Positions 3,066 to 24,509 of a DNA stretch of 28,070 nucleotides are shown here, in pieces. The translations under genes were made by a program, and so were the position numbers. Source of the DNA: a virus. The stretch spans positions 1 through 28,070 of IMG/VR virus record IMGVR_UViG_3300020451_000062; one strand, written 5' to 3'. Under the pieces are notes generated by a model that was not told the origin of the DNA, made no database searches, and was given only the letters and a program-made list of their open reading frames with translations. Each line of letters begins with the position of its first letter. Position 1 is the first letter of the stretch.

Positions 3066-6000
3066 CTAGTTTTCTGGTGGTCTATAAGTATTTCCTCTAG
3101 GGTATAGTAATCCTGTTCTAGGTCTCTTGTCTTTTAGAAATTCTCTACTTGAATTAAGATAACATGCATCTGTTATTGCATTACCATTTAAAAAATCATA
3201 ATGATCTATCTCTGCAAAGGCACCTGACGCTGTGTTTGCTGGTACTGCAATTTCATCAACTTCATCAAAGAATCTAGGAAATATTTGACCGTTATTAAGT
3301 AAAGCAAATGGTCTACCAGGAGAAATGTAAACAGTTGGATTGAGATATGTAAGTGTATAATTTAAAGATCCTGGAAGAGGTCCTTGAGTCCATATATGTG
3401 GTACTGGTGGGAAACCAATTGCTTTCTTATTGATTGTTTGATCACGCATCTCAACATTATCAAGAGACATAGTGTAGTTGAGTCTAGGAGGTGGTGTTTG
3501 GTCTGTCCACTGATGTGGTACTGGTGGAAACCCAATTGGTTTTTTATTAACTGCTTGGTCACGCATCTGAATATCGCTCATCCCAAAAGTATGGTTTCCA
3601 TATGCTTTTGTTCCATTCTGCATACTAGGATCATTAAGATGTGCGTTGCCTGGTTGGAAAGCAAGAGTCCAGTTTCCATCAATAGCAGGATTAACTTTCC
3701 AATACTTATCCAGTTCACTAGAACATTGATTAGTAAACTGAAAGTTTCCTGGAACTGCTGGAGAACCACCAGTGTGTGATCTTATATTATTAACGCCACT
3801 AGCTGTAAGAATAAAATTATATGTTTGTGCGTTACCCGTAGAAGTATCCGTTACTGTTACATTGAAAGATGTATCTTGAAAATAACTACTACTAGCAGAT
3901 GATTGAAGATATCCTGTGGATGTATTGAATATTAAATTGGTACCAATTAAACTATCACCACTAATAGTCCAAGGTCCTACATCAACTGTCTCTCCACCAG
4001 ATGTAACAGCACTTGAGTATCCTAGATTAATGTTTACAACAGATCCATGTGCAATCGGACTCTGACTGATTGTTCCTTGTGCTTGATCCCATGTAAATGT
4101 TTTCTCAACAAATGGGAAGATAGCACCATTGTTTACTGAGGAGGTAAATGTAACTGTTGTAGGATCGAAGTATCCAGCATCAACAGGAAGACCAGTACCA
4201 ACACCTGTACCAGTATTATTAGCTTCTTGTGCATCAGTTCTAGTGGTTAGAGATACACTTCCAAAATGAGGACCATCAGTTTCCTGATGCGTATCAGTAA
4301 TAATACCCATAGAAAATGGTCCACTACCACCAACATCAGTATTGGTTGATGTGAATACATTACCAGTACCAAGATCAATTGTTATACTATTTGCGAGAGC
4401 ATCTTCAGCAGTGATACCCCACCATTGTCTAAGTGCTTCGGTTAAATTAATATTACCTACGATGGTTGCTATAGGAGAAGGTGTTCTGATCTGTACTTTC
4501 TTTCCTACTTTTCCTATAAAATAACCAGCATCTGCTGGGTTAAATTTGACTACAAGTAGAGAAGATGCGTTAGTGGTACTAAATGGATTAGAAACAAGTT
4601 CTCTTTCATCCATCAGATTAAGAGGATAATTAGTACTCCTACCAGCATCTGTTCTATGTCCTGCATTAGTAGTACGAATCCAGTCCTTTGCTTTTTGTGG
4701 TAGATTACTAGTGGTAGCATCGTAACCATTATGCTCAAGCCATGTCGCTATGATACCAGCAACAATAGGTGTAGAGAAAGAAGTTCCTGAAATATTATCA
4801 TAGGTTGTACTACCACTTCCATAAGAAGTATTAGCACTCCATTCATAATCAGGACATACGATTCTTTGACCTGGAGCATAGACATCTACAGAGTTTCCAT
4901 AGTTAGAAAAGTCTGCAACATTATCACCAGGTTCAGTAGCACCAACAACAATCTTAGGTTGATCAAAATCCTCTGCATTAAATCTTAAATCTTTTGGTCC
5001 TCCAGTCCTAGCTCCAGTTTTAAATTTTGCTTGTAGAGGACCTAAGAATGTATCACTTGCTGATATAAATCCATTACCAGCAGAGCGACAAATAATAATA
5101 TTATTTGATCTAGAAACAGTGCTTTCAATCTCATCTAAAATTTCTAGTTCATTGTATGGATAGTCTGTACCAGAATCATTTAATTCAATTATAGGATTAC
5201 TTCCACTGGGAGTGGTAGCACCAAAAGAAGCGTTAATAATCGCTGGTCTATTATTACCTTTGTAGTAAGCACTACTAGGATTATTATGATCTATAACTGC
5301 TTGATATGCTGAAGCAAGATCAGAAAAGGTAGCACCCAGATTACTATTGAATGCTTTAAGTGAATAGATTCTTATATCCTTAGCAATTCCATATCTCCAT
5401 CCAGAAGCTAGAATTGCACAGTTAGTTCCATGTCCATTATCATCCTCATTAGTATTTCCAACACCACTGTAGTTACTTAACTCATATACTCTATAGTCTC
5501 CTTGTTCTGATGTACCAGTTAAACTACTTCTATTGTCTGGATCATATAATTCTGGATGAAGTGCTGCTGTTGAACCAGTAGGTCTACTCGCACCTCTAAC
5601 TCCACTATCAATAATATAAAGATCAACACCATCACCCGTTTGGGTATAAGTGTATTGATTATTAAGTGCTGATCTATTTTTCTTTGAAATTCTATCTAGA
5701 TGCCACGCATTTAATCTATAGCTGAAACTACCATGTCTTGCTGGAGATGATTGATATCTGTACATCCCAGGTTGATTAGGACAATAAGGATATAAAACAG
5801 GTGGAGTGTAATTACTAGTCTGAGGTGGACCTTGAAAACTATAATTTGATTGATGACTACTACTACCAGGTGCATAGTTACCAGCGTTCCAATTACTTCC
5901 TGTGTATTCTACACCACCATTCCATATACCATCAGGAGTTGTAGATAATCTCAGTGGATAATTAGTATTTGATGAGTCGTTTTGTCTAAAGTAAAATGTG

Positions 6001-6422
6001 TATCCTGATCCCCCAGCAATACTAATTCCTGGTTTGTACCAAGTGGACTGATCAAATGAGTATTCAAATACAGGTTGTCCGTCCCACTGAACAACACGGA
6101 ACCATCTATACTGACCACCAGCAGATGTAGCCCACGTTGTATCTTGACTTGCTTCTAAACTAACTTCTGTTTCTATATCTTCTACGATAACTTCTTCTTT
6201 TATAGGATCTAATTCAATAGTTGTATCCCAAAAACATCTATGTCCACAATCATTAACATTACCTTTTACTTGGTCAATATTTTCATCAGGAATATCAAAA
6301 CTTATTATACGAAAACTTTCAAGACTCTGATGAAACTGAGCATAAGGAACTCTCGCTTCAATAGAAGCACGAATCTCTTCGAGAGGAGAATTACCACACG
6401 CTTTTACTATTAACCTTTTCAT
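3066..6422 (-). CDS. Virion-type protein with subtilisin/proteinase-K-like (S8) protease domain
   Basis: An 1118-aa multidomain protein. Residues ~1-60 resemble an I9-type protease propeptide (short beta-alpha-beta pattern). Residues ~100-235 look like a degraded cupredoxin-like domain (Cys214, Met220 kept). Residues ~238-580 form an S8 peptidase domain with the whole catalytic set: Asp272 in IIDSG, His331 in NGHGT, oxyanion Asn450 in SAGN and Ser548 in GTSFSTP; the preceding WHLDRI also matches proteinase-K-type enzymes. After that come beta-rich regions, including an Ig-like stretch around 790-890, and two tandem 39-residue repeats near 940-1020. It lies among fibre genes, so it is probably a structural component. 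Whether the protease matures virion proteins, cuts itself or degrades host surface or matrix proteins cannot be told. An ATG lies 11 bases after the preceding gene. Confidence 0.9.
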   Translation of the reverse strand: MKRLIVKACGNSPLEEIRASIEARVPYAQFHQSLESFRIISFDIPDENIDQVKGNVNDCGHRCFWDTTIELDPIKEEVIVEDIETEVSLEASQDTTWATSAGGQYRWFRVVQWDGQPVFEYSFDQSTWYKPGISIAGGSGYTFYFRQNDSSNTNYPLRLSTTPDGIWNGGVEYTGSNWNAGNYAPGSSSHQSNYSFQGPPQTSNYTPPVLYPYCPNQPGMYRYQSSPARHGSFSYRLNAWHLDRISKKNRSALNNQYTYTQTGDGVDLYIIDSGVRGASRPTGSTAALHPELYDPDNRSSLTGTSEQGDYRVYELSNYSGVGNTNEDDNGHGTNCAILASGWRYGIAKDIRIYSLKAFNSNLGATFSDLASAYQAVIDHNNPSSAYYKGNNRPAIINASFGATTPSGSNPIIELNDSGTDYPYNELEILDEIESTVSRSNNIIICRSAGNGFISASDTFLGPLQAKFKTGARTGGPKDLRFNAEDFDQPKIVVGATEPGDNVADFSNYGNSVDVYAPGQRIVCPDYEWSANTSYGSGSTTYDNISGTSFSTPIVAGIIATWLEHNGYDATTSNLPQKAKDWIRTTNAGHRTDAGRSTNYPLNLMDERELVSNPFSTTNASSLLVVKFNPADAGYFIGKVGKKVQIRTPSPIATIVGNINLTEALRQWWGITAEDALANSITIDLGTGNVFTSTNTDVGGSGPFSMGIITDTHQETDGPHFGSVSLTTRTDAQEANNTGTGVGTGLPVDAGYFDPTTVTFTSSVNNGAIFPFVEKTFTWDQAQGTISQSPIAHGSVVNINLGYSSAVTSGGETVDVGPWTISGDSLIGTNLIFNTSTGYLQSSASSSYFQDTSFNVTVTDTSTGNAQTYNFILTASGVNNIRSHTGGSPAVPGNFQFTNQCSSELDKYWKVNPAIDGNWTLAFQPGNAHLNDPSMQNGTKAYGNHTFGMSDIQMRDQAVNKKPIGFPPVPHQWTDQTPPPRLNYTMSLDNVEMRDQTINKKAIGFPPVPHIWTQGPLPGSLNYTLTYLNPTVYISPGRPFALLNNGQIFPRFFDEVDEIAVPANTASGAFAEIDHYDFLNGNAITDACYLNSSREFLKDKRPRTGLLYPRGNTYRPPEN
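3382..3598 (-). repeat. Tandem ~117-base repeat inside the protease gene
   Basis: Two adjacent in-frame copies encode the shared pattern MRDQ.(V/I)NKK.IGFPPVPH.WT, once with AVNKKP and once with TINKKA, separated by about 39 codons. The copies are also similar at DNA level (for example TGTGGTACTGGTGG in both, read on the plus strand), which suggests a fairly recent duplication. Confidence 0.8.
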
Positions 6423-8521: not shown

Positions 8522-10966
8522 TTAATTCTCCAGTTGCAATATTGTAAGAGTTGCAGTGATTGTTGTGTTCGCACCAGAAAGATTTTCTACAGTTACATAA
8601 ATGTTGGTACTAACTGGTGATTCAGTATTACCACCAACAGTAAATGGTGTTATAATTTGTTGTTGATTCTGACCTGAGGTGATTACTTCAGCGAGTACAC
8701 CAGAACCAGGATCAGGGTCTTCACCTACGTTCCTATTTACGTCGTTAGTTCTTGCTTGGCTACTACTATATATGCGACACCATGCTGCATCAGATAAGTT
8801 AATTTGCATCAATACATATGATTTGAATCCAACTAAATCTAACGTATCATAAGTTCCAGGTGCTAAGAGAATTGTGGTTCCACTTACAGTTGTTCTACTA
8901 GAAAGAGTACCACCTCCTCCTCCACCGCCACCAGTCGCACTAAGAACACCAGCAGCAGTAACAGCAAGACCTGATCCAATAATTACACCACCCAATTGAG
9001 AAGTTGTAGCAGGAACAATATTAGCAATACCTGTAGTCTGATCTATATTAATTGTGGTACCGTTCTTAATACCACCAAGAGATGTTGGTGATGCAATAGC
9101 GATAGCAGATGCTGAAGTGCTAAGAATTCCAGAAGAATCAATACTTAATCCAGTTCCAACTTTAACTCCTCCAAGAACAGTAGCAGATGCAGTTGGAAGA
9201 GTTACACTAGCAATTCCAGTGCTACTATCGATCGCTAATCCAGAACCAATCTTAATACCACCTAATACAGTAGTAGAAGCAACGGGAAGAGATTGAACAT
9301 TGGAACTAAGAACACCACTAGCAGTGATAGAAAGACCAGCTCCAATCATTACACCACCCAACGTTCCATTAGTTGCAACAGGCAATGTATATCCACTAGG
9401 AGCAGCACTAATCTGCCCGTTCGACGCCATGGTAATGCTAGTTCCGTCTATTCTAACGCCACCTAATACAGTTGTAGATGCTTGAGGTAGTGTATAGAAA
9501 CTAGCAGGTTTATTAAGAATTTGTGATAGACCTGATGCAGAATTCCAATCAGCATTTACTGGTTGAACACTATTGAAAGTAATTCTATTGTTAGCAGGTT
9601 CATGTGTTAATGTCGTACCACCTAGAGCAAGAATCTGATAACTAGATGTTGTACCATCCGTAGCGGTAAGAGTAACTGTAGCTTCGTTACTTGCTAAGGT
9701 AGTTCCTACAGAAAGAGTATAGTTATTTAAGTTATAATAATTAGTTCCATCATTTGTCCACTCCCATTTATCAGTAGCTTCATTCCAACGTAAGACTGTA
9801 TCAGTTGACGTGCCTCTATCAATTCTGATTGATCCATTTTGTGATGGAGTTCCTGTTGTACCATCATTAATAACAATCTCATTGTTAGATACGCTGAGAG
9901 TATTAACGTTAGTGTTAGTGGTTGTTCCCTGTACAAGTAGGTTACCAGTAACTGTGAGGTCACCAACAGATAAGTTATTAGATGTAGTACCACCTCTGCC
10001 TGTAATAGTATCAAGAGTATCAGACTCAGCAGTTAAATATGTTGGAGTAAAATTTTCCCATTGTGATGAAGATGCATTGTACTTAATGAGATCTCCTCCA
10101 GTCAAACTAGCTAAAGTTACATCAGTGAGATCAGGCAATGCAACCTGAGTTAAATATCCAGCAGCACCATGATCACCCCATCCGTATGCAGCATTCCATT
10201 CTGATAGTTTTGTTAATGTAATACTACCAGCAGGTGAAGCAGTAAATACAGGATCAACTTCTGATGCAGCTGCAGCATTTCCTGGCTCCCATTTACCAGC
10301 AGTAGAATCCCAGATGAGTGCTTGTCCGTTTGTTGGTGCTGCTGATGCTGTATCAACATCACTGAAAGTATTGATAGGAATACTGGTAAGATCTCCAGCA
10401 ACTAGATATCCATTAACACTATGATCTCCCCAGTTGTATGCTGCATTCCATTGAGTAGATCCAGAAGATCCATTACCTGTAGTGATACCTCCAGTGAATG
10501 TTGCATCAGTTGAATTAGTAAAGTTAGCAAGACCACCTACAGTTAAATTATTTACTACTACATTTGGATTACCAGATAGTCCAGTCGAACTACCAGAAAT
10601 ATTTGCACCAGTAATCAATGCTGTAGATGGATTGTATGTAAGAGTATCGTCTGCAAATGTTTCTACATTACCAGTAGCAGCAGATCCAAGAATCAAAGGA
10701 AGAGTAAGATTATCACTTCCTTTTGTTGTTACGTTAATAACATTATTTAATTCGTTTAACCATTCAGATGTACCATCATATCTAATGACTTGATCTGTTG
10801 TTAAAGAAGCTAGTGTTACGTCTGTTAGACCACCAAGAGTAGTTGATCCACCTCCACCACCAGCAGGAGAAAGAGATACCCAAGAGGTTCCATCCCACTC
10901 CCAGGTAATACCTGCTGCAGTGTGTGTAGCTCCTGTTGAAGGATTCGATGGGAATGAAATAGCCAT
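8522..10966 (-). CDS. Modular tail fibre-like protein with LGG repeats
   Basis: An 814-aa fibre. The N-terminus (MAISFPSNPSTG then WEWDGTSWV, residues 1-31) is shared with the 528-aa fibre and is probably an anchor to the tail or another fibre. Next come a DLTDVTLASLT module, two WNAAY.WGDH..GYL motifs (about residues 175-275), a GTPSQNG/RWNEATDKWEW module (~370-410) and six tandem ~30-residue units of the form LP.A..T.LGG..IG.GL.I...G (about 495-680). A nine-glycine hinge follows. The last ~115 residues (from GFKSYVLMQI to TILQLEN) form a C-terminal domain of a kind frequent in marine phage fibres, likely the receptor-facing tip. Fibre assignment is firm; the receptor is unknown. An AATAAATA motif at 10972-10979 is too close to the ATG to be a convincing promoter. 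Confidence 0.88.
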   Translation of the reverse strand: MAISFPSNPSTGATHTAAGITWEWDGTSWVSLSPAGGGGGSTTLGGLTDVTLASLTTDQVIRYDGTSEWLNELNNVINVTTKGSDNLTLPLILGSAATGNVETFADDTLTYNPSTALITGANISGSSTGLSGNPNVVVNNLTVGGLANFTNSTDATFTGGITTGNGSSGSTQWNAAYNWGDHSVNGYLVAGDLTSIPINTFSDVDTASAAPTNGQALIWDSTAGKWEPGNAAAASEVDPVFTASPAGSITLTKLSEWNAAYGWGDHGAAGYLTQVALPDLTDVTLASLTGGDLIKYNASSSQWENFTPTYLTAESDTLDTITGRGGTTSNNLSVGDLTVTGNLLVQGTTTNTNVNTLSVSNNEIVINDGTTGTPSQNGSIRIDRGTSTDTVLRWNEATDKWEWTNDGTNYYNLNNYTLSVGTTLASNEATVTLTATDGTTSSYQILALGGTTLTHEPANNRITFNSVQPVNADWNSASGLSQILNKPASFYTLPQASTTVLGGVRIDGTSITMASNGQISAAPSGYTLPVATNGTLGGVMIGAGLSITASGVLSSNVQSLPVASTTVLGGIKIGSGLAIDSSTGIASVTLPTASATVLGGVKVGTGLSIDSSGILSTSASAIAIASPTSLGGIKNGTTINIDQTTGIANIVPATTSQLGGVIIGSGLAVTAAGVLSATGGGGGGGGTLSSRTTVSGTTILLAPGTYDTLDLVGFKSYVLMQINLSDAAWCRIYSSSQARTNDVNRNVGEDPDPGSGVLAEVITSGQNQQQIITPFTVGGNTESPVSTNIYVTVENLSGANTTITATLTILQLEN
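8933..9492 (-). repeat. Six tandem fibre-shaft repeats (LGG units)
   Basis: Six imperfect in-frame units of about 27-35 codons encode LP.A..T.LGG(V/I).IG.GL.I...G.L.. . The best-matching units are the third and fourth (TTVLGGIKIGSGLAIDSS and ATVLGGVKVGTGLSIDSS). Such units probably build a trimeric beta-rich shaft and may change in copy number by recombination. Confidence 0.8.
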
Positions 10967-10978
10967 AAAGATATTTAT

Positions 10979-12565
10979 TTAATGCTTAATAATGAAAACC
11001 ATCGCATAATATGGTGGTAAGTTGTTGTGTGCTTGGTCTCCACCAGCACTTCCAGTTTGAACAACGTTAAGATTACAATCATTGTTACTTGCTGGCCAAG
11101 GACGATAACCCTGATCGACCGATGCATCTTGACGATCCCAAGAGTGAGAGTGTGAAGGCATTTGATCTACTGTTAAGGTCACTGTTGCTTCACCACCAGT
11201 AGCACCAGCAGAATAAGTGGAACCAGCACCAACAATAAACCTATTTCTTAAATCAGGAGTGTATTGTCCAACTATTGCTGCGAGAGCACCATAAGAAGCT
11301 GTTGTTGTACCATCACATAACAACCAACCTGCAGGTGCTGTAGATCCAGCATACATCATGATTGCACCAACAGGAGCAGCTTCAGTAACTCGACTATCTT
11401 TTATGAATGAACTACTAGCAGAACTCCATCTCACACCGTCTGCGTCAGCAAGACCAGTAGTATCTGTAGTTACAACTGCTTTGCCTTCATAGGTAAGCAC
11501 ACCATTAGGAGCACCAAGAGAGAATGATTGTGGAGGGTTGCTATCATTAGTAAATTTAATACTATTATCACTTAAGAATAGATGTCTTACTTTTTTATCT
11601 GCACTACCAATATCATAGGTAGCGTTTGTTGTAGGTAATAAATGAAAATCATACTGACCCATCAAAGATGTAACATCAGCATCACCATATGCTGACGCCA
11701 TTCCAGAATAAGTAGAACCATCATTAGTGAACTCCCACTGATCTGAAGTTTCATTCCAACGAATTTCTACGTTAGCAGATGTACCTCTTTCAATTGCAAG
11801 TCCACCATTTTGTGATGGAGTACCAGTTTCATCACTGTTAAGAGTTAAAATATTATCTCCAATATTAACTGTATTACTATTGACTGTGGTTGTCGTTCCA
11901 TTGACTGTTAGGTTACTACATGTAAAGTCTCCTACTGTTGTTGCTAAAGAAGTTGTATTCCCTGCAGTTAATACTTCAGTTAATGTTGGTGTGTTACCAG
12001 TTAAATCAGGAGCAACCTCCCATGAAGCACCATTGTACTTCAGAATATATCCAACCTGAGCACCATTGACTGCATCTACATCACTAAGATCATTAAGAGC
12101 AAGTGACTGCTGAGAAGTTAGAACATTTATAGTTCCAGACATATTAGGGTGTGATGTACACTGATAGTACAATGTATCAGGTGCATTCATTGGAACAACA
12201 AATGTGAGATCTGATCCATTACCAGCGTCATTGTTTGTTACACCACTATTATATGCTGTACCACCACCTGCTTGAGGACCAGTGGATTGAATTCTAAAAG
12301 GATGTCCACCTGATCTATTTTTAAAAACGTATGACTGACCTCTTATCAAATATAAAGTTGGATCCTCAGCATTTGTAGGGAATCCTTCACCAGAGAATAT
12401 GTAATGTGTGTTTGCTGTTTGTGTAAGAGTCCACGAAATTACTGGTTGCCCAGGTATATCAGTAGTATTACTTGTTACCCAAGATGTTCCATCCCAAGTC
12501 CATGTGTTACCACCAGATGTGAACACTTGATTTGAAGTAGGAGTATCGGGAAAATTTATTGCCAT
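10979..12565 (-). CDS. Tail fibre with plastocyanin-like domain and C-terminal tail collar domain
   Basis: A 528-aa protein. Residues 1-30 (MAINFPDTPT, then WTWDGTSWV) match the N-terminal anchor of the 814-aa fibre. Residues ~42-150 look like a cupredoxin domain: GGHPFRI gives His88, and LYYQCTSHPNMSGTINV gives Cys136, His139 and Met142, a full set of type-1 copper ligand types. A DLSDVDAVNGAQVGYILKYNGASWE-type module follows, then a GTPSQNG/RWNETSDQWEF module also found in the 814-aa fibre. Residues 400-528 are a phage tail collar domain (GWLLCDG, DLRNRFIVGAG, MPSHSHS, ending LPPYYAMVFIIKH), which often forms fibre tips and includes an HSH metal-type motif. The fibre role is well supported; copper binding is inference. 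The gene follows the 123-aa gene by 5 bases. Confidence 0.9.
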   Translation of the reverse strand: MAINFPDTPTSNQVFTSGGNTWTWDGTSWVTSNTTDIPGQPVISWTLTQTANTHYIFSGEGFPTNAEDPTLYLIRGQSYVFKNRSGGHPFRIQSTGPQAGGGTAYNSGVTNNDAGNGSDLTFVVPMNAPDTLYYQCTSHPNMSGTINVLTSQQSLALNDLSDVDAVNGAQVGYILKYNGASWEVAPDLTGNTPTLTEVLTAGNTTSLATTVGDFTCSNLTVNGTTTTVNSNTVNIGDNILTLNSDETGTPSQNGGLAIERGTSANVEIRWNETSDQWEFTNDGSTYSGMASAYGDADVTSLMGQYDFHLLPTTNATYDIGSADKKVRHLFLSDNSIKFTNDSNPPQSFSLGAPNGVLTYEGKAVVTTDTTGLADADGVRWSSASSSFIKDSRVTEAAPVGAIMMYAGSTAPAGWLLCDGTTTASYGALAAIVGQYTPDLRNRFIVGAGSTYSAGATGGEATVTLTVDQMPSHSHSWDRQDASVDQGYRPWPASNNDCNLNVVQTGSAGGDQAHNNLPPYYAMVFIIKH

Positions 12566-23890: not shown

Positions 23891-24078
23891 GCTTGCCTCC
23901 AACAGTATTTACGGTTGGTCTGTACGATGTACATGTTTCTCTCGTTCATTGATGCGTCAACAGACAGAGGTCTATTTTTTAACCACTGTTCTAGTATCAG
24001 CGAGACAACAAAACCAATAGCAAAAACATAGAATAACAGGTTCAGTAAACCTGCAATGGATAGTAGAAATACAATCAT
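23791..24078 (-). CDS. Small membrane protein overlapping the next gene (95 aa)
   Basis: The N-terminal half is a clear membrane anchor (about residues 2-29, IVFLLSIAGLLNLLFYVF onward), followed by a polar loop and a second possible hydrophobic segment (about residues 67-82, WVTNLIWFMVNVSLFMI). Its ATG overlaps the TGA of the GIY-YIG gene (ATGA), which supports it as translated. However, its last ~33 codons overlap the 5' end of the 89-aa gene in another frame. Either the two genes truly overlap by 100 bases or this gene has lost an earlier stop. The N-terminal half is the more certain part. Function unknown. Confidence 0.55.
   Translation of the reverse strand: MIVFLLSIAGLLNLLFYVFAIGFVVSLILEQWLKNRPLSVDASMNERNMYIVQTNRKYCWRQAWVTNLIWFMVNVSLFMISRNMQTPTDTFWNGL
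23896..23900 (-). promoter_or_regulatory. Ribosome binding site that fixes the start of the 89-aa gene
   Basis: GGAGG on the minus strand, five bases before the ATG at 23890. It decides this start over the upstream TTG at 23902. Confidence 0.75.
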
Positions 24079-24509
24079 TTGAAATAGTCTTTTCGGTAGT
24101 ACCTTCCTAAGATGTTAGAATTATAGTATAAAGGTGTCCCGTCGTCAAGTGCTTGAGTCAGAACATTGTTCAAAAATAATTGTCTGGTCTCCTCGTAGTT
24201 TGTTTTACCAAGAGTTTCATGTAAAGATATTATCTCTCTTGAGAAATTATCCTTTCCATAGGTTGATAAGTCGGTTTTGAGTTCGGGGCAAGATCCATAA
24301 TATCTCTTCCAGTCGGACTCCGAGGTAACTCTACGTTTTCCACCTCTGGGTTTCCTCTTCTGCACGAAATATTTTCTACCGATATACTTTTTGCCTGTTG
24401 ACTTATTAGTAATGAGGTAGACGTAACCGAAGAAATCGCCAATGTCGTCAGAAGTGAAAGGTTTACCCTCATATATCCAGGGGTTTTCGTAAACTCGTTC
24501 CTTAACCAC
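24075..24509 (-). CDS. GIY-YIG nuclease-like protein
   Basis: A 144-aa protein with a GIY-YIG core: GYVYLI (residues 28-33), then KKYIGRKYF (residues 40-48), a basic patch (KRKPRGGKRRVTSESDWKR), YYGS, the helix TDLSTYGKDNFSREIISL with candidate metal-binding Glu92, and an EE.RQL helix. This pattern is typical of small free-standing phage nucleases related to Seg/Mob-type homing endonucleases. A role in cutting host or competing phage DNA is possible, and a repair or DNA-processing role is equally so. No intron or split gene is seen nearby. The apparent start is a GTG at 24509 with no well-placed ribosome binding site. The gene follows the methyltransferase by 12 bases. Confidence 0.82.
   Translation of the reverse strand: MVKERVYENPWIYEGKPFTSDDIGDFFGYVYLITNKSTGKKYIGRKYFVQKRKPRGGKRRVTSESDWKRYYGSCPELKTDLSTYGKDNFSREIISLHETLGKTNYEETRQLFLNNVLTQALDDGTPLYYNSNILGRYYRKDYFK

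Follow-up and report, generated by a model that had tools for sequence, protein, structure and literature searches.

The window analysed here is a whole stretch of 28,070 bases from an IMG/VR virus record. Its gene content is that of a T4-like cyanophage, with genes for transaldolase, peptide deformylase, ribonucleotide reductase subunits and several tail fibres, and its nearest DNA matches are Prochlorococcus and Synechococcus phages. The tail fibre protein P0001 comprises, from the N- to the C-terminus, an N-terminal segment, a cupredoxin-like domain, a linker/repeat region and a collar domain. The N-terminal segment (MAINFPDTPTSNQVFTSGGNTWTWDGTSW) resembles the start of the adjoining 814-aa fibre ORF. 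The features of P0001 are as follows:

10979–12565, minus strand: tail fibre protein P0001, 528 aa (PHROGs tail fibre families; Pfam Collar)
12116–12442, minus strand: cupredoxin-like domain, residues 42–150, modelled as 41–151 with nine beta strands (AlphaFold2, Foldseek, HMM)
12302–12304, minus strand: His88, candidate first His ligand, in the motif HPFRI (92% conserved)
12158–12160, minus strand: Cys136, candidate thiolate ligand (95% conserved)
12149–12151, minus strand: His139, candidate second His ligand (94% conserved)
12140–12142, minus strand: Met142, candidate axial ligand (99% conserved)
11234–11368, minus strand: phage tail collar domain PF07484, residues 400–444 (Pfam)
11144–11152, minus strand: HSH (HxH) motif, residues 472–474, in the collar region (sequence)

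An earlier note on this DNA had placed H88, C136, H139 and M142 in this minus-strand ORF, and the sequence has them at exactly those positions. The note was also right on the residue limits of the domain, and its nucleotide coordinates (12115–12441) were off by one base from the true span of 12442–12116. Its description of P0001 as a collar-domain fibre agrees with Pfam, in which PF07484 scored 41.2 bits, above the cut-off of 24. By analogy with other fibres, the HSH motif in the collar region may be a second metal site, differing from the cupredoxin site. The adjoining minus-strand fibre ORFs 8522–10966 and 10979–12565 have common N-terminal and internal segments (e.g., GTPSQNG...RGTS...RWNE), which suggests module exchange between fibres. 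Elsewhere in the window, the PHROG label "NAD synthetase" of a 144-aa ORF (24075–24509, minus strand) may mislead; this ORF has matches to several families of homing endonucleases as well.

The AlphaFold2 model of the fibre domain, built from a 55-sequence alignment, showed nine strands with a mean pLDDT of 95.9 and a pTM of 0.88. In the model numbering (+40), C136 ends strand 91–96, H139 and M142 are located in the loop preceding strand 103–109, and H88 is located two residues ahead of strand 50–53. As modelled, this is the strand layout of type-1 copper proteins. The predicted topology, the fold matches and the covariation of the ligand columns point to a convergence of the four ligands in space. 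Foldseek returned 26 PDB matches at E ≤ 1e-3, all of which were cupredoxins or multicopper oxidases. This places the model among the Greek-key beta sandwiches of solved cupredoxins. The matches include rusticyanin and AcoP, which were the best fold matches, as well as Cu nitrite reductase and a pseudoazurin engineered to carry the ligand loop of amicyanin. The TM-scores of these matches ranged from 0.42 to 0.61 by query length, and such moderate values reflect a distant family.

The family profile search gave plastocyanin as the best match (E 3.7e-4), followed by weaker matches to nitrite reductase, auracyanin and amicyanin. The earlier note had claimed a plastocyanin-like fold, to be checked by HMM and structure-prediction searches, and both kinds of search recovered cupredoxins. 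Pfam PF00127 Copper-bind (plastocyanin/azurin) scored 14.5 bits on the fibre domain, below its cut-off of 21.2, and matched 17 of the 55 relatives at E < 0.1. The best NCBIfam match, the amicyanin equivalog TIGR02657, scored 15.3 bits, also below its cut-off (110.2). Since the domain falls below both cut-offs, it represents a separate, apparently unnamed cupredoxin family. A profile comparison with a rusticyanin sequence aligned only around the C-terminal ligand loop and is given no weight here. Judged by its predicted structure, the segment of residues 42–150 is a cupredoxin, and a chance motif was ruled out by the fold, the profile matches and the conservation.

The Met is two residues nearer to the Cys than in plastocyanin, as the earlier note had claimed. 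Its view of this spacing as an odd cupredoxin variant did not hold, because the alignments showed that Cys-x2-His-x2-Met is the ordinary loop of amicyanin and Cu nitrite reductase. HMMER paired the prolines of HPF and of the plastocyanin PHN motif, which shifts His88 by two residues. Multicopper oxidases use an HPF motif whose His is a type-1 ligand, and on this basis the shift is probably a local misalignment. C/H/H/M sites can take other soft metals in vitro. It is nevertheless very improbable that the site binds a different metal (Zn or exclusively Cu(I)), or that the Cys acts as a redox or disulphide switch instead of a type-1 copper ligand. In fold and in the order and spacing of its ligands, the domain corresponds to type-1 copper proteins, and it has no Cys other than Cys136; both points count against such readings.

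The complete candidate type-1 copper ligand set that the earlier note saw in P0001 recurs across the family. The exact H/C/H/M set was present in 103 of 118 non-redundant homologues (<70% identity), and in 79 homologues (<70% identity) M142, C136, H139 and H88 were conserved at 99%, 95%, 94% and 92%, all in the top nine columns, although both counts are biased upward by search patterns (QCTSHPNM and LYYxC) that include ligand residues. For this reason, a control sample was selected through a DNA pattern encoding YN-x-GVTNNG, a stretch that includes no ligand residue. The ligand set was intact in 5/8 and 46/50 non-redundant domains of this sample (51/58 altogether). Domains from eight isolated phages showed H/C/H/M in all 11 cases.

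In decayed sites, H88, C136 and H139 were usually lost together, and the Met was mostly kept. The decayed states were YSQM, YANM, YSEM, ISQM, LSEM, YASM, SSDM, ESYM, ENDA and ASER, and the only clear partial losses were FCHM and RCYM. One homologue had HCHQ, with Gln at the axial Met position; Gln is the axial ligand in stellacyanin. Among 4186 column pairs, corrected mutual information ranked H88–H139 third, C136–H139 sixth and H88–C136 fourteenth. The ligand state required 10 changes on a poorly resolved tree built without the ligand columns. An underpowered independent-pairs test of joint loss gave 2–3 pairs on supported branches and none contrary for the H/C/H pairs. At the sequence level, the ligand conservation and joint decay favour a metal site that is maintained by selection and is probably of the type-1 copper kind.

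Two further groups of sequences were observed in the family. The L048–L079 group (e.g., L051:2344–6240) is a viral clade with 2–3 neighbouring domain copies that have lost the whole His, Cys and His set. A divergent cupredoxin-like subfamily (L150:2588–8326; L008 residues 199–244) carries CHSHTGQG / CHHHTGQG, with Gln replacing the axial Met.

The window itself contains a second, decayed copy of the domain:

5757–6008, minus strand: cupredoxin-like domain, approximately residues 139–222 of the subtilase ORF 3066–6422 (profile-profile match)

This minus-strand ORF encodes an S8 domain, and the cupredoxin-like domain lies upstream of the protease domain. The profile-profile comparison of the subtilase copy with the fibre domain gave an E-value of 5.8e-9 and a probability of 95.9. 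In the alignment, Tyr155 and Gln217 replace both His, and Cys214 and Met220 are kept. L279 (78% identical) shows the same replacements. A cupredoxin-bearing fibre or spike gene was found next to or near a subtilase-type gene in L003–L009, in L154 and in P-SSM2 (genes 297–298; L151). Subtilase-type genes near cupredoxin fibres often have a C-terminal cupredoxin domain of their own, and the subtilase-type ORFs of L004–L006, L008 and L009 carry the domain too. A functional link between the virion protease and the cupredoxin domain is possible.

The decayed copies bear on an alternative that we consider rather unlikely, namely that the domain is a purely structural beta-sandwich. It would then derive from a secreted cupredoxin and serve as an Ig-like spacer or adhesion domain with no natural copper, the ligands persisting by ancestry and packing. 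Clades in which H/C/H are replaced (YSQM, YANM, YSEM and others) keep the fold, the window subtilase copy has decayed while its P-HM2 relative keeps all four ligands, and the domain is shuffled among many tail proteins, all of which agree with such a role. However, the ligands are among the most conserved columns of a family whose members are often <50% identical. The mostly all-or-none loss of H/C/H also behaves as one metal site and not as independent packing residues.

At E ≤ 1e-3, tblastn matched the domain to 335 phage records, and at 1e-2 to 347; nearly all of them were Synechococcus or Prochlorococcus phages, and all matches were <60% identical. The earlier note had supposed that similar domains may occur in other marine phages, and this proved correct. 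The domain is not a peculiarity of the P0001 fibre but recurs widely in virion proteins. In most records it forms the C-terminal ~105 residues of cyanophage gp9 (S-SM1, P-TIM40, Syn9), and it is found also in fibres, spikes and subtilases. With the gp9 N-terminal part as the query, enteric T4-like phages were matched too, but they were absent among the tblastn matches of the domain. The gp9 fusion therefore looks marine-specific at this sensitivity. For scanning genome contigs, alignment A1 was too diverse and A2 was used instead.

In long fibres and spikes, the domain is located near the N-terminus, as in P-SSM2 (58–162), S-SCSM1 (101–196) and the podovirus P-GSP1 (20–117). A further copy is present in the P-SSM2 fibre around residues 730–837, and in S-H9-1 the domain is at the C-terminus of a subtilase. 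The closest relative of the window domain (L002, 86% identity) occupies residues 1003–1110 of a much longer fibre with the same collar-type C-terminus, indicating transfer of the module from one fibre gene to another. The domain-bearing long tail fibre subunit of S-SCSM1 is listed as "virion protein" in its record, and the virion proteome of this phage has been measured by mass spectrometry (PMC9602691).

The location of the domain in fibres and in the fibre connector gp9, with a gp9 fusion only in marine phages, would suit a part in host recognition. The copper-loaded domain might dock to a cyanobacterial surface protein that is copper-related or redox-active, or act as a "copper Trojan horse". 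The HxH motif in the collar region of P0001 adds to this idea, for which the iron proposed for HxH fibres is a precedent (PMC11705849). We regard such recognition as quite improbable, since in the window, P-SSM2, P-GSP1 and S-SCSM1 the domain is near the N-terminus, which is usually the virion-proximal end, and not at the tip.

Cell relatives of the domain were found in Bacteroidota, Proteobacteria, marine group II archaea and others. Many of them have lipoprotein or signal-peptide-like N-termini and look exported from their sequences, and some are single domains of ~130–160 aa. No copper genes were evident beside the cell relatives in L118, L127 and L147, whose neighbours were inspected by eye. 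The virus or cell label required 13 changes on a weakly resolved tree, so exchange between viruses and cells is likely. The contigs L082 (Planctomycetota MAG) and L083 (Rickettsiales MAG) encode phage-fibre-like proteins with the domain and are probably phage contigs binned with cells, not cell genes.

The reading that we hold to be probable is a mobile cupredoxin accessory domain on the virion, which would bind one Cu; the metal would stabilise it and possibly tune its contacts. Copper occupancy of the fibre domain itself appears likely. One copper ion would be held by His88, Cys136, His139 and Met142. The domain would form a compact, stiff accessory module that directly follows the N-terminal segment and is exposed at the tail or fibre surface, and the copper would stiffen the fold and the exposed ligand loop. 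The copper-loaded domain may influence contacts to an adjacent virion protein or to the surface of the host. The earlier note suggested stability, redox sensing or binding to a host surface as roles of a bound copper, and each of these is a candidate role. A structural role is most likely; no result of the analysis pointed to electron transfer, and a contact with the host is possible. In several fibres the domain lies close to the N-terminus, which favours a location by the baseplate. The loss of the site in several scattered viral lineages that keep the domain indicates that the fold can serve without copper. The widely varying positions and partner domains suggest a generic role, which counts against the copper-binding reading, as does the assembly of virions in the cytoplasm, where free copper is scarce. 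In a broader version of this reading, most marine T4-like cyanophages would carry working type-1 copper in the fibre connector and fibres. Its loading would control attachment or triggering, tails would form a pool of copper ligands, and copper would be a variable of infection. We consider this broader version improbable.

Cupredoxins have long been known; within the open-access papers and family libraries covered, a domain with an intact site is undescribed in phage adsorption proteins. No cupredoxin or plastocyanin-like domain in phage tail fibres was found in the open-access literature, which held only loosely related work, and none of the annotations examined names the C-terminal domain of gp9 a cupredoxin. 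A conserved copper-type site occurs unnamed, in these annotations and libraries, in hundreds of marine phage records. The commitment of a T4-like phage to a cell is timed and directed by gp9 and the fibres. Since relatives of the domain occur in the adsorption machinery of 335–347 phage records, many ocean viruses may carry copper at the point where they grip the host. If loaded, the domain would give very abundant viruses an external metal cofactor and would tie the infection of Prochlorococcus and Synechococcus, which are copper-sensitive hosts, to copper. If empty, it would show a redox-protein fold reused as a structural module. A study of cyanophage coevolution reported mutations in gp8 and short tail fibre genes (PMC9910659), and the text of that paper makes no mention of gp9.

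The nearest published idea is that of iron in HxH fibre motifs. In T4 gp37 and marine phage fibres, iron is reported to be held by HxH motifs in octahedral coordination with histidine ligands (PMC11705849). These sites place a metal on a phage fibre, as is proposed for P0001, but they are not a globular cupredoxin. With a loaded fibre domain, the idea of iron in fibres would be broadened to include a true metalloprotein fold.

Among phage proteins, the C-terminal ~105 residues of cyanophage gp9 (phrog_677, baseplate wedge tail fibre connector) are the same domain with ~50% identity. P0001 is without the gp9 N-terminal part, and its phrog_677 match is limited to profile positions 284–410 of 412. 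The BFVD fold matches of the fibre domain included P-SSM2 PSSM2_298, a tail spike/proximal tail fibre (E 1e-14), and the long tail fibre proximal subunit of S-SCSM1 (E 4e-14). Both have the domain near the N-terminus of a long fibre, and their distal parts differ from P0001. The petE plastocyanin genes of cyanophages are a separate matter from the fibre domain. The At5g54830-like domain PF25489, whose name derives from a plant protein, matched 32 of 55 fibre-domain family members at E < 0.1 (best 8e-6), and all cases examined were below the cut-off, including one cell relative with a score of 26.4 against 27.

Among characterised copper proteins, plastocyanin, rusticyanin and AcoP have the same fold and ligand order as the fibre domain, but their Cys-His-Met loops are longer, and instead of belonging to virions they act as electron carriers or reside in the periplasm. 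Amicyanin (TIGR02657) and the type-1 domain of Cu nitrite reductase share with the fibre domain both the cupredoxin fold and the Cys-x2-His-x2-Met loop, and their alignment to it covers the C-terminal half. Their first ligand lies in a PHN motif, whereas the fibre-domain family has HPF. Unlike the virion fibre domain, they are free or enzyme-linked periplasmic electron carriers.
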